Shown here piece by piece: positions 11,739 through 22,136 of a stretch of DNA of 35,306 nucleotides. The stretch comes from Chloroflexota bacterium (GTDB lineage: Bacteria; Chloroflexota; Limnocylindria; P2-11E). How positions within the stretch are numbered: the first letter of the stretch is position 1; every line of letters starts with the position of its first letter. Made by a program: the position numbers and the translations under genes. The notes beneath the pieces are model-generated. The model was not told the origin of the DNA and ran no database searches. It saw only the letters and a list, made by a program, of their open reading frames with translations. The stretch is from assembly GCA_016183435.1 (NCBI GenBank), contig JACPEQ010000046.1:1-35306 (forward strand), given 5' to 3'.

Positions 11739-12022
11739 GTCGAGGGCGGCAAGCCGGTCCGGTGTGGGGAACCGGGCCGGCGGAGGAGGGGAAGGCGCCG
11801 GAGGGGTCCCAAGCGACCCGCCGTCAGGGCCCTCAGGACGCGGGAAGCACCGTAAACGCCGATCTCTCCTGGCGACCAGAGCGTTGGGTCACATTCGGGG
11901 CGACCGAACGGCCGCCGAGGAGGTGCCATCAGCGATCCGCGGATGGACCGCACACGTCCACGAACACGAGCACCCCGTCCACCAGGGCGCGCCCGTCTGA
12001 GAAGGAGACCGACCAAGAAAGG

Positions 12023-12286
12023 CCCGAGCGATCTGTCGCCGCTCCGAGATGGTGTCTGACTTCGCATCTCGGTCGGTGGGACCGGCCCTTGATACCGTCT
12101 CCGGCCGTCTTTGATGCCGTCCCCAAGGCCGATCCTCGTTGATGGGATCTCCGTTCGACCGGCCTCTTGACAGACCCCTCGGGTCGGTGACCCACGCTAC
12201 GACGGGCTCGTTCGCTGTGGAAGGGTCGAACGTCCCCGCCGTGACCGACCTGATGCCGGGGATCGAAGCGGATCGTGGATAACTGC
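12023..12286 (+). repeat. Copy 1 of dispersed intergenic element (CCCGAGCGA ... TTGAT-box array ... CAGACCCCTCGGGTC ... CGTGGATAACTGC)
   Basis: CCCGAGCGA 12023-12031; TTGATACCGTCTC 12089-12101; TTGATGCCGTCCC 12111-12123; TTGATGGGATCTC 12139-12151; CAGACCCCTCGGGTC 12171-12185; CGTGGATAACTGC 12274-12286. The same blocks recur at 21524-21802. Confidence 0.8.
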
Positions 12287-12675: not shown

Positions 12676-13209
12676 GTGGAATGCAGCGAGCGGCTCCAGT
12701 CCTATCTACGTGAGAGCAACGTCCCATTCCAGCTGGTCGAGCATCCGGTCGCGTACACCGCCCAGGAGGTCGCCGCCTCCGAGCACGTGCCGGGTCGGAT
12801 GTTCGCGAAGGTCGTGATGGTGGTCGCCGATGGTCAGTTGACGATGCTCGTCCTCCCCGCGATGGAGAGGGTCCGCCTCAGCGAGGTGCAGAAGGCCCTC
12901 GGGGCGAAGGAGACCAGGCTCGCGAGCGAGGAAGAGTTCGGGTCGCGCTTTCCGGACTGCGACGTCGGCGCGATGCCCCCTTTCGGCTACCTCTACGGCG
13001 TGCCGATGATCGTCGACGAGTCGCTCGCGCGGAACGAGCGCATCGTCTTCCAGCCAGGAACGCACACGCAGACGATGAGCGTGCGGTACGCGGACTACGT
13101 CCGGCTCGTCCAGCCGCGCATCGCCGAGATCGGGACCGTCGCGGAGCGCGAGCCGGCGGGCAGCATGTTCACCGAAGAGCGGCTTCGGCCGAGCACCTCG
13201 GCCCGCTGA
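12676..13209 (+). CDS. YbaK/EbsC-type aminoacyl-tRNA deacylase domain protein
   Basis: GTG 12676: LVEHPVAYTAQEVAASEHVPGRMFAKVVMVVADGQLTMLVLPAMERV... typical YbaK/ProX fold sequence. Confidence 0.85.
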   Translation: MECSERLQSYLRESNVPFQLVEHPVAYTAQEVAASEHVPGRMFAKVVMVVADGQLTMLVLPAMERVRLSEVQKALGAKETRLASEEEFGSRFPDCDVGAMPPFGYLYGVPMIVDESLARNERIVFQPGTHTQTMSVRYADYVRLVQPRIAEIGTVAEREPAGSMFTEERLRPSTSAR

Positions 13210-13236
13210 GCGCGTCCAGCGCGCGGAGCTGGGGAC

Positions 13237-13647
13237 GTGGGCTATCGAACGACGGAACACACCGCCGACATCGGCATCGAGGCTTGGGGTGAGAGCCTCC
13301 CGCTCGCCTTCGAGGAAGCGGCGCGGGCGATGTTCTCGCTGATGGTGGACCTCGACACGGTCGCCGAGCGTGCGACCCGCACGCAGACGGTGCACGCGTT
13401 CGAGCGCGGCGACCTGCTCGTCGGATGGCTCAACGAGCTCATCGGCCTCGTTGATTCGGAGGGCCTCGTGTTCCGACGCTTCGTGGTCAGCTCGCTGACG
13501 GAGCGCGATCTCACCGCGCGCTCGTACGGCGAGCCGATCGACCCCGCGCGCCACTCGCCGCACCTCGCGGTCAAGGCGGCCACCTATCACCGGCTCGCGC
13601 TCGACGATGGTCCGCCTGCGCGCGTGCACGTCGTGCTGGACATCTAG
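13237..13647 (+). CDS. Archease (RtcB cofactor)
   Basis: GYRTTEHTADIGIEAWGESLPLAFEEAARAMFSLMVD, LLVGWLNELIGLVDSEG and HLAVKAATYHRL are archease signatures; adjacent to rtcB. Confidence 0.93.
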   Translation: MGYRTTEHTADIGIEAWGESLPLAFEEAARAMFSLMVDLDTVAERATRTQTVHAFERGDLLVGWLNELIGLVDSEGLVFRRFVVSSLTERDLTARSYGEPIDPARHSPHLAVKAATYHRLALDDGPPARVHVVLDI

Positions 13648-13649
13648 CG

Positions 13650-15107
13650 ATGACCGTGTCCGTCGCCGCGCGCCTCGAGCCGATCGACGGCTGCCGCTGG
13701 CGGCTGCCCCGAGGAAGCCGGCCCGGCATGCACGTCCCCGGGATCGTGTACGCGGACGCCGCCATGGCGGCGGAGCTCGAGCACGATCCGGCGCTCGACC
13801 AGGTGGCCAACGTCGCGACGTTGCCGGGGATCGTTCGGGCATCGCTCGCGATGCCCGACATCCACTGGGGATACGGGTTCGCGATCGGCGGCGTCGCCGC
13901 GTTCCGCCTGAGCGACGGCGTCGTCGCCGCGGGCGGGGTCGGCTACGACATCAACTGCGGGACACGGATCATCCGCACGACCCTGACGCGGTCGGATCTG
14001 GAGGCCGTGACCGATCGGCTCGCCGACGAGCTCGCCCAGCGGGTGCCGGCGGGCCTCGCGTCACAGGGTCCGACGGCGCGCGCCGGGTCCGAGCTCGACG
14101 CCATCCTCCGCGGTGGCGCGCGGTGGGCGGTGGAGCACGGGCTCGGCTGGCCGGACGACCTCGAGACCTGCGAAGAGCGAGGAGCGATGGACGGTGCGGA
14201 TCCCGGTCTCGTGTCCGCACGCGCCAAGGAGCGCGGCCGTGGACAGCTCGGGTCACTGGGCTCGGGGAACCACTTCGTCGAGGTCGAGGCCGTCGATGAG
14301 GTCTTCGACGACCGCGTCGCCGCGGCATTCGGCGTCAGCACGGGCCAGATCGTCGTCTTCCTGCATACCGGCTCACGCGGCCTCGGACACCAGGTCTGCA
14401 CGGACTTCCTGGGTGTGATGGGGGATGCGGCACGCCGGAGCGGCATCCAGCTGCCGGACCGCCAGCTGGCGTGCGCCTACATCCGCTCCAAAGAGGGCCA
14501 GGAGTACCTCGCGGCGATGCGCGCGGCGGCGAACTTCGCCTGGGCGAACCGCCAGGCCATCACGCACGCCGTGCGCGGGGCATTCACCGCGGTCTTCCGG
14601 CGAAGTGCGGACGCGCTCGGGATGTCGGTCCTCTACGACGTGGCGCACAACATCGCCAAGGTCGAGCGGCACGCCGACGACGGCGAGAGCGTCGAGGTGC
14701 TCGTCCACCGCAAGGGCGCGACGCGCGCCTTCCCCGCGCACCACCCCGACGTACCGGCGCGATATGCCGCCGCCGGCCAGCCGGTCCTCATCCCCGGCGA
14801 CATGGGCCGCTACTCCTTCCTCTGTGTGGGCGCGGACGGTGCCATGCGCGAGACGTTCGGCTCGACGTGCCACGGCGCCGGACGGCGGCAGAGCCGTCAC
14901 GCGGCGCTGCGCGAGCAGCGGGGGGTCGACCTGGTCAGCCTCCTGCGCGCGAAGGGCATCACGGTGCGCGTCACGGACCGGCGCCTCCTCGGGGAGGAGG
15001 CATCCTCGGCCTACAAGGACGTGGCCTCGGTCGTGGAGGTGTGCGACCGCGCGGGGATCGCCCGCAAGGTGGCGCGCCTGCGGCCGATCATCGTCGTCAA
15101 GGGGTAG
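13650..15107 (+). CDS. rtcB: RNA-splicing ligase RtcB
   Basis: MPDIHWGYGFAIGGVAAF, GGVGYDINCGTR, LGSGNHFVEVEAVD, HTGSRGLGHQV, GSTCHGAGRRQSR: Mn-binding and GMP-His motifs of RtcB. Confidence 0.96.
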   Translation: MTVSVAARLEPIDGCRWRLPRGSRPGMHVPGIVYADAAMAAELEHDPALDQVANVATLPGIVRASLAMPDIHWGYGFAIGGVAAFRLSDGVVAAGGVGYDINCGTRIIRTTLTRSDLEAVTDRLADELAQRVPAGLASQGPTARAGSELDAILRGGARWAVEHGLGWPDDLETCEERGAMDGADPGLVSARAKERGRGQLGSLGSGNHFVEVEAVDEVFDDRVAAAFGVSTGQIVVFLHTGSRGLGHQVCTDFLGVMGDAARRSGIQLPDRQLACAYIRSKEGQEYLAAMRAAANFAWANRQAITHAVRGAFTAVFRRSADALGMSVLYDVAHNIAKVERHADDGESVEVLVHRKGATRAFPAHHPDVPARYAAAGQPVLIPGDMGRYSFLCVGADGAMRETFGSTCHGAGRRQSRHAALREQRGVDLVSLLRAKGITVRVTDRRLLGEEASSAYKDVASVVEVCDRAGIARKVARLRPIIVVKG

Positions 15108-20177: not shown

Positions 20178-20906
20178 TCACTGCGAAGGCGGGGCGATCC
20201 TCGACTGCATGACGACGGGCCCCTCTCGCTTGCCGGTCGACGACGTCTCGACGGTCACCGCGCAGCGCTCGAATCCGGCGAGCTCCTGACCGATCTCGAC
20301 CATCTGGATGCGCTCGGCGTCGGGTCGGAAGCTCGCGCCGCGGACCCACTTGCCGTCGGGGGCGATGAGCCAGAGCGCGTAGAGCTGCCCCTGATCCAGC
20401 GGCCGCAGGTCGTGGAAGACCACGAAGGCGGGCTTGCCCGACGCCGGCTGCATGAGGTTGCCGCCCGAACCCTTCCACTGATCGACGCCGGCCATGTACC
20501 AGGTGCGTCCGCCGAGGGCGACGTTGGCCAGGCCGCGCTCGTACTCGTCCCGCTCCGCCTGGACCGCCTGGAGCCGCAGCGTCTGGTTCGCGTCGAACCC
20601 GAGCAGGAGCACGATCGCGGCGGCCATCGCGAGCATCCGCGGATCGAGCGGGATGCGCGGCAGGCGCACCGCCCGCCGCTGCCGGCGCACATCCTCCGCG
20701 GCCGCCGCGAGGATGCGGTCCTTCAGGTCGGCCGGAGGCTCGCGGAGCGGGACCGTATCGGCGAGGGCCGCGACGACCTCGGCGATCTCGCCCGCGGCCG
20801 CGCGGCACGAGGCGCAGCCCCGCAGGTGGGCGGCGACGGCGTCGCTCCGATCGGCGGGCAGCGCCCCGACCGCGTACAGCTCGAGGTCGTCGAGGACATG
20901 GGTCAT
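20178..20906 (-). CDS. Anti-sigma factor, RskA type with zinc-finger-like N-terminus
   Basis: HVLDDLELYAVGALPADRSDAVAAHLRGCASCRAA (HxxxCxxC), single TM, C-terminal RskA domain; overlaps the sigma gene by 4 nt. Confidence 0.88.
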   Translation of the reverse strand: MTHVLDDLELYAVGALPADRSDAVAAHLRGCASCRAAAGEIAEVVAALADTVPLREPPADLKDRILAAAAEDVRRQRRAVRLPRIPLDPRMLAMAAAIVLLLGFDANQTLRLQAVQAERDEYERGLANVALGGRTWYMAGVDQWKGSGGNLMQPASGKPAFVVFHDLRPLDQGQLYALWLIAPDGKWVRGASFRPDAERIQMVEIGQELAGFERCAVTVETSSTGKREGPVVMQSRIAPPSQ

Positions 20907-21451
20907 CGGACCGCTCCGAGGACGCGCCGCATCTTCTGCAGGCCGATGCGCATCCGGCCCTTCACCGTCCCGAGGGGCACTCCCATGAGCTCGGCCAGCT
21001 CGGACTGGGTGTACCCGCCGAAGTACGCGAGCTCGATGGTCCGGCGCTGGGCCTCGGGAAGGGTCTCGAGCGCCGCGCGGACGGAGCCGCGCTCGACGTT
21101 GCGGGCGGCCTCCTCCGCGGTGTCGAGCTCCGAGGCCGTGTGGTCGGCGGCTTCCAGCGGGGCCGGGCGGAAGGCGGTGCGCCGGCGCAGCACGTCGACC
21201 GCCCGGTGGTGGACGATCGACAGGAGCCAGCTCCGGACGTTGCCGCGCTCGCGCCGGAACGTCCCGGCGCCGCGCCAGGCGGCCAGGAACGCGTCCTGGA
21301 CGACGTCCTCGGCGGCCTCCGGCTCGCCGAGGATGCGGTAGGCGAGCGTGTACGACACGCGGCCGTAGCGGTCGTAGAGGCCGCTCAGCGCCGACAGATC
21401 ACGCGCAGCCAGCGCCTCGGCGAGGACGTTGTCGTCCCGCTCGACCGTCAT
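20903..21451 (-). CDS. ECF RNA polymerase sigma factor (SigK-like)
   Basis: LYDRYGRVSYTLAYRILGEPEAAEDVVQDAFLAAWR and LPEAQRRTIELAYFGGYTQSELAELMGVPLGTVKGRMRIGLQKMRR. Confidence 0.93.
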   Translation of the reverse strand: MTVERDDNVLAEALAARDLSALSGLYDRYGRVSYTLAYRILGEPEAAEDVVQDAFLAAWRGAGTFRRERGNVRSWLLSIVHHRAVDVLRRRTAFRPAPLEAADHTASELDTAEEAARNVERGSVRAALETLPEAQRRTIELAYFGGYTQSELAELMGVPLGTVKGRMRIGLQKMRRVLGAVR

Positions 21452-21523
21452 CTACGGAAGGGTACGGAGGGGGCCTTGCTCTGGATGAAAAAGGGGAGGG
21501 AAGGAGGTCGGAAAAAGAAGCGA

Positions 21524-21802
21524 CCCGAGCGACCTGCTTCCGGTCCCAGCCACTGCTTCGAAGACAGTGTCCGGGTCGTGGAGCCGGTCCTCGATACCCT
21601 CTCGGACCGCCTTTGATGCTATCTCCGGTTGCGCTCCCAGGACCTGGCCCTTGATAGGATCTCGGGCCCTGCCGATCCCTTTAGCAGACCCCTCGGGTCG
21701 CGCTGAAACATACGGTCCCACCCATGGCCCAACAAGCGCTTTTTCCACGATCTCGATCGGCGTGACGTCATCCGTGTCCACCGATCCCCGCAGTTATCCA
21801 CG
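21524..21802 (+). repeat. Copy 2 of dispersed intergenic element
   Basis: CCCGAGCGA 21524-21532; TCGATACCCTCTC 21591-21603; TTGATGCTATCTC 21613-21625; TTGATAGGATCTC 21651-21663; CAGACCCCTCGGGTC 21685-21699 (identical 15-mer to copy 1); GCAGTTATCCACG 21790-21802 (reverse complement of the 13-mer in copy 1). Confidence 0.8.
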
Positions 21803-21935
21803 CGGATCGAACAGCGCTGTGGACAGCAGTGTCTTTCGTCCCCACCGCGCGCAGACCGAGGCCCGCAGGACGAGGTCGAGCACGGTGTCGCGAGGAGGGC
21901 TTTGGCCCGACCGAGCGTCGGACAAAAGCAAACAT

Positions 21936-21992
21936 CCCGAGCGACGACCGACCGACGGATCACGCACCTTGAGGCGATCTCGGTAGCGCTCC
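21936..21992 (+). repeat. Partial third copy of the element
   Basis: CCCGAGCGA 21936-21944 and TTGAGGCGATCTCGGTAGCGCTCCC starting 21969, closely matching TTGATGCTATCTCCGGTTGCGCTCCC at 21613. Confidence 0.65.
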
Positions 21993-22136
21993 CCCGGGCG
22001 GCCCCCTCTCGGGACGGTCGCGAACTTTAGTCCCGCTCAACGGAAGGCCGCGAGCCGTTCATCCACGATCCGACGTGCCGGATATCCACCAGTTCGGCGA
22101 GTTATCCACCGAAGCCTGCGCCCCTACCATCGACGA

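Follow-up and report, generated by a model that had tools for sequence, protein, structure and literature searches.

A new structured small-RNA family in one class of Chloroflexota, many members of which are preceded by DnaA-type boxes

What kind of element fills the long gene-free gaps of this Chloroflexota contig, and on which strand is it to be read? In the window, i.e. the whole stretch of 35,306 nucleotides analysed here (from a host genome of 2.22 Mb in 198 contigs), a sequence-only reading had placed at 11739–12286 one of two copies of a dispersed non-coding element whose conservation seemed confined to short motifs, described four boxes at 12089, 12111, 12139 and 12167, spaced 22, 28 and 28 bp apart, and suggested protein-binding iterons, a regulatory array or a degraded mobile element. 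The box positions proved to be exact, and the likeness between the two gaps is not a matter of chance. The gaps align with each other, and a blastn search of the whole genome with the copy from the second gap (copy 2) returns the copy from the first (copy 1). Independently, an nhmmer profile that contained neither window copy and was derived from 24 other genomes matched 21510–21700 (E = 9e-54) and 12009–12186 (E = 1.2e-17) on the minus strand, the next best E-value being 0.33, and another profile, made from paralogs of the copy 1 type in other genomes, found copy 1 at E = 1.7e-32. That the element is dispersed and non-coding and that conservation resides in short motifs is thereby upheld, although its conserved part covers only 12009–12186 of the extent first proposed, and the two gaps hold three members rather than two, the third (copy 3) being located at 21920–22016. 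The check suggested along with the original description (a profile search, intergenic bias, compensatory changes) was run and gave a positive outcome.

Compensatory changes were examined in two alignments. The first (A3) comprises 26 sequences, namely 25 copy 2 orthologs, that of the window included, and copy 1. In it, 97.4% of paired cells are standard pairs, a value that falls to about 40% when the partner is slid by one column; compensatory changes occur at 15 of the 49 pairs, and 51 double-change cells were counted compared to 13.5 in shuffles, none of 500 shuffles being as high. The second (A5), which is the basis of covariance model R3, consists of 27 short members from other families without any sequence from the family of the window; its 18 pairs are 94.4% paired, and again none of 500 shuffles scores as high. 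Ratios of G-U to A-C pairs are 135:9 and 46:3 in the minus-strand sense. Such a large excess of G-U over A-C indicates that the transcribed strand is the minus strand and argues against a DNA structure. Folding of single copies was uninformative alone (z-scores from –1.7 to –2.6, only mildly better than shuffles). A peptide-coding long form was rejected, since each frame is interrupted in at least one member and length differences do not preserve the frame; short-form members are not long enough for a coding-potential test to inform. Judging by this comparative evidence, we are almost certainly dealing with a real, structured, class-wide RNA family, and its promoter and conservation suggest that it is expressed.

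An array of protein-binding iterons or other regulatory sites acting as DNA would be in line with the short repeated motifs, their variable spacers and the DnaA-type boxes close by. Yet neither compensatory changes in long-range pairs nor a 15-fold G-U over A-C excess in one strand sense is expected of double-stranded DNA sites; the DNA-element reading is largely refuted, and we consider it highly improbable. Covariation and the G-U asymmetry identify the boxes instead as RNA hairpin loops of the other strand: the first three, read before on the plus strand, are reverse complements of minus-strand loops, and the fourth, TTGACAGACCCCTCGGGTC, is not a loop at all but the complement of the closing stem 5′ arm. 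Iterated DNA sites of the protein-binding type do occur, in the form of the GTGGAYAA boxes that precede the RNA (see below).

Copy 1 (12009–12186, minus strand, about 178 nt) is built of a closing stem, three GAGANNNYAUCAA-type hairpins, an apical hairpin CCGAGATG...CATCTCGG and a T-rich 3′ tail, whose complement is the A-rich leader seen on the plus strand. Fold and covariation place the 5′ arm of the closing stem, CGACCCGAGGGGTCTGTC, at 12169–12186 of the minus strand; CCCGAGCGA is the complement of the 3′ arm, and read from both ends of the minus strand the stem is GACCCGAGGGGTCTGT ... ACAGATCGCTCGGGCC. The minus-strand loops are GAGATCCCATCAA (12139–12151, plus-strand box TTGATGGGATCTC), GGGACGGCATCAA (12111–12123, box TTGATGCCGTCCC) and GAGACGGTATCAA (12089–12101, box TTGATACCGTCTC). 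Covariance model R1, which itself includes copy 1, scores it at 107 bits (E = 2e-28). Copy 2 (21510–21700, minus strand, about 191 nt) has three GAGANNNYAUCRA hairpins, the loop GAGATAGCATCAA (21613–21625, minus strand) lying within an ultraconserved core, and its closing stem reads GACCCGAGGGGTCTGC ... GCAGGTCGCTCGGGTC from both ends of the same strand. Just upstream of it, copy 3 (21920–22016, minus strand, about 97 nt) contains a single hairpin with the loop GAGATCGCCTCAA and a closing stem as in the other copies. R3, made without window-family sequences, matched 21936–22013 of copy 3 in its own genome at E = 0.001, and copy 3 orthologs were found in four genomes (G001, G002, G004 and G009).

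All members have in common the stem P1 (CCCGAAGG... / ...CTTCGGG) and one to four hairpins CC-GAGANNNYAUCAA-GG, the TTGAT..CTC of the plus strand being the complement of the loop. Extra arms bring the length from 75–90 nt, which is typical of most members, to more than 200 nt. Most members carry one loop, copies 1 and 2 three, L202 at least three, and L113 four. Two long members (L205 and L206, about 190 nt) combine one GAGATCACATCAA loop with a large extra arm, and a reading frame resembling inorganic pyrophosphatase is located just downstream of both. Three candidate loci were discarded: L142 (G032:C2:144660) has the look of an ordinary terminator hairpin, and L199 and L203 are stray loop matches.

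We next consider how widely the RNA is distributed. Of 27 further genomes of the family examined by blastn, 24 have an ortholog of copy 2, as does a single genome of a sister family, at 75–90% identity; in one of these orthologs (L054, G013:C79) the 3′ half is replaced in the blastn match, possibly by an insertion or a misassembly, while the model match (126 bits) has a longer span. With R1, smaller relatives emerged throughout the class; R3, which was based on them, revealed members in 140 of the 177 class genomes and 42 of the 46 genera. Nine more class genomes were matched by R1 only, giving about 149 of 177 in total; covariance E-values are rough, and R3 under-counts members with unusual arms. 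In a phylum sample of 399 genomes all 44 positives belonged to the same class, and no member turned up with the covariance models in the other Chloroflexota classes, of which about 344 genomes were sampled. Within the class, no clear match was obtained in G026, G007, G010 and four genomes of genus g10 (G029, G039, G085 and G086), due to either assembly gaps or diverged members. In family f5, which has 1.1-Mb genomes, R3 found none and R1 one marginal match, the RNA apparently having been lost or having diverged along with genome reduction. The class carrying the RNA is probably Ca. Limnocylindria, whose families include P2-11E, QHBO01, CSP1-4 and the genome-reduced Limnocylindraceae (PMC13212565).

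One to several copies per genome, and the inversion of copy 1 relative to YbaK when the window is compared with G001 and G004, could be taken as traces of a degraded or non-autonomous mobile element. Against this, the gene neighbourhood is fixed within each family and the neighbours examined by Pfam are housekeeping genes; 75–90% identity is maintained over 200 nt between genera, together with the ultraconserved core; and viral contigs contain no real copies, the six pattern matches found there being isolated, without a closing stem, and located in AT-richer phage DNA. We regard a mobile origin as extremely improbable. With its place beside the same genes kept across genera, the element is not a recently copied mobile one, as the sequence-only reading had rightly held, nor is its suggestion of a degraded one supported. 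A transposon guide RNA (omegaRNA, HEARO) was likewise rejected, as TnpB/IscB and variable sites would be expected in place of housekeeping neighbours and a conserved position.

The RNA does not correspond to a known one, as the sequence-only reading had also judged. Rfam 15 gave no match at the gathering cut-off for the window and eight relatives, and permissive E-values returned chance matches only. No description of this RNA was found in the open-access literature, although motifs catalogued outside Rfam could escape such a search. Chloroflexi-1 RNA (RF01698) is also a candidate structured RNA of Chloroflexota origin, but it was described from Chloroflexus aggregans (PMC2864571), and our family has no Rfam match. 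A further question is posed by 6S RNA (RF00013): the family could be 6S-like, a stable hairpin that would bind RNA polymerase in place of canonical 6S in this class. Like 6S RNA, it stands alone, has paired ends and measures about 190 nt in the family of the window, and the two distributions are the reverse of each other, since the 6S covariance model is positive in 43 of 201 sampled Chloroflexota, none of them from this class, and in 0 of 61 genomes of the window's own family and class (controls positive). However, 6S is undetected in most other Chloroflexota as well, so its absence says little. Moreover, most members, with their single hairpin, are only 75–90 nt long, there is no large central bubble, and the family gets no score against the 6S model. 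We therefore think a 6S-like role quite unlikely.

In the family of the window, copies 3 and 2 are flanked by a divergent uvrD (25 of 25 loci) on one side and by an ECF sigma/anti-sigma pair on the other. In the window itself, the genes for an ECF sigma factor and an RskA-type anti-sigma factor (20181–21451, minus strand) lie directly downstream of copy 2. A same-strand ECF sigma gene follows copy 2 by 36–90 nt in 20 of 25 window-family loci, and a purine nucleoside phosphorylase gene follows the RNA in family f3. Such an arrangement might be expected of a cis-acting 5′ leader, i.e. a riboswitch or attenuator of the downstream gene. Several observations speak against it. At two loci (L034 and L035) the RNA is intact with no sigma gene within reach, and in family f2 the gap is 497 nt. 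A motif CATCC...CGTAC, conserved in the family, lies between the RNA and the sigma gene; it resembles an autoregulated ECF promoter, and it is absent from the two loci with no sigma gene within reach. Neighbours in f3 are MoaA and purine nucleoside phosphorylase and in f4 uracil phosphoribosyltransferase and a low-molecular-weight phosphatase; some f3 and f4 members face a convergent gene, and copy 1 faces a PaaA/PaaC-like gene. A leader with one constant downstream gene is thus rejected, different or convergent genes being found in different families, and we find a cis-acting leader in general very unlikely. Instead, the constancy of the RNA while its neighbours change from family to family points to an action in trans. 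Copy 1 adjoins YbaK in three genomes of the genus. Beside it, at 12679–15107 (plus strand), there are a YbaK-like tRNA-editing gene, an archease gene and an RtcB-like gene (named by reading of the sequence), which may constitute an RNA ligase neighbourhood.

The region upstream of copy 2 contains a –10-like TATGTT (21708–21713, minus strand; TA[TG][GA]TT in most orthologs, below the consensus cut-off of the scanner) and, 17 bp away, a –35-like TTGTTG (21731–21736, minus strand), the TTG of which is almost invariant among orthologs. A GTGGAAAA box stands beside the –35 element (21742–21749, minus strand; GTGGATAA in most orthologs), followed further upstream on the same strand by GTGGACAC (21774–21781) and GTGGATAA (21794–21801). 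Another minus-strand GTGGATAA box is located upstream of copy 3 (22102–22109), within the spacer that separates this copy from the divergent uvrD. The GTGGATAA upstream of copy 1 (12275–12282), a DnaA-box core included in the CGTGGATAACTGC that lies beyond the element, is on the plus strand, opposite to the usual orientation in the family. These three GTGGATAA sites are the only ones in the 35 kb window, all within the two RNA gaps, with 0.08 expected. A sigma-70/terminator scanner returned no matches in the window, its thresholds being too strict for these GC-rich promoters.

The same layout recurs in other families. Among 54 f3 and f4 loci, TTG-N17/18-TANNNT with a start at the stem is found in 44 (compared to 0.3% of shuffles), and 51 have GTGGAYA upstream, usually no more than one or two bases away from –83 and –51. 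The density of boxes upstream, on both strands, is 14 per kb, versus 0.15 per kb elsewhere in the same loci. The promoters in the window's family are alike, with the almost invariant TTG, TA[TG][GA]TT and several GTGGAYAA boxes. Copy 1 has a poor promoter of its own, and together with its paralogs L151–L156 lacks the family layout; it is probably a paralog under different control.

The core of the boxes at the RNA promoters is identical to the core of the DnaA box TTATCCACA (PMC8203912). The dnaA-dnaN spacer of one genome (G036) contains GGTGGATAAG, CGTGGATATC, TGTGGACAAT and CGTGGACAAC. The shared core and these similar boxes make it likely that DnaA binds the RNA promoters. In another genome (G032), the dnaA-dnaN spacer carries GTGGAGAA variants, which we count against DnaA as the reader of GTGGAYAA, and this reader may be a protein other than DnaA. 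G032 also harbours a locus (L209, G032:C7 near 415256–415296) with two inverted GTGGATAA boxes 33 bp apart and promoter-like TTG and TACGCT elements; there is no family RNA downstream, and it may represent another DnaA-type promoter or a different RNA. DnaA-regulated units such as dnaA likewise have boxes on the flanks of their promoter that share the core of TTATCCACA (box consensus from PMC8203912), but here the product is a structured RNA. In Bacillus subtilis, production of ArrA, a cis antisense RNA of dnaA, is affected by DnaA (PMC12112137); a link between small RNA production and DnaA would be common to both cases, but our family is unlinked to dnaA and highly structured. The literature examined describes no class-wide small RNA with two fixed DnaA-type boxes. 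We know of no such family either.

What might the constant loops do? In 16 genomes the pattern GAGATNNCATCAA (11 fixed bases) is nearly confined, on either strand, to the family RNAs, while a reversed control pattern gave 0 matches. It occurs twice in the genome of the window, both times at these RNAs, and one to eight times in each of the 15 others, nearly always in family members. Loops that are conserved and exposed, in RNAs with multiple paralogs per genome, could serve as base-pairing seeds for mRNA targets. But with nearly all GAGATNNCATCAA copies inside the RNAs, no mRNA has an 11-base complement, which argues against long antisense pairing via the loop; a shorter seed may yet serve, and overall we judge an antisense function unlikely. 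The constant, nearly genome-unique loops would most likely be binding sites for a putative protein. CsrB/RsmZ-type RNAs may be comparable, being independently transcribed and carrying repeated hairpins with one constant loop motif in variable number; in our family such repetition is seen in copies 1 and 2, L202 and L113, most members having one loop. CsrA sites have an ANGGA loop motif. The family differs in its loop consensus GAGANNNYAUCAA, which does not qualify as a CsrA-type loop, in having only one to four loops, and in its long closing stem.

Taken together, we favour an independently transcribed, trans-acting small RNA with protein-binding repeated loops and DnaA-coupled synthesis, a combination to which we attach an even degree of belief. 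Established by the comparison are the strand, the closing stem with its one to four hairpins, and a core promoter of the sigma-70 type abutting the 5′ end of the RNA, with boxes at about –51 and –83 in most of the class. The RNA would act in trans, and the putative protein would be sequestered or activated by it, the number of hairpins setting the number of molecules held. RNA synthesis would probably be coupled to DNA replication through DnaA. Against this explanation we count the T-run after the stem, which is clear in the window's family only; in addition, the single loop of most members makes a sponge fit less well than for CsrB-like arrays. A bolder version, in which DnaA directly activates the multicopy, class-wide RNA, the loops capture an RNA-binding protein and replication thereby throws a global switch replacing 6S, seems to us rather doubtful.

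As far as Rfam and the open-access literature go, this family of structured small RNAs is new. Uncultured Chloroflexota have so far yielded few described regulatory RNAs, and the new RNA is present in nearly all genomes of one class. Its loop motif, almost unique in the genome, provides a clean bait for a new RNA-binding protein, and the pair of DnaA-type boxes at fixed positions before a structured RNA suggests that initiation of replication and RNA-based regulation may be linked, an idea open to testing.
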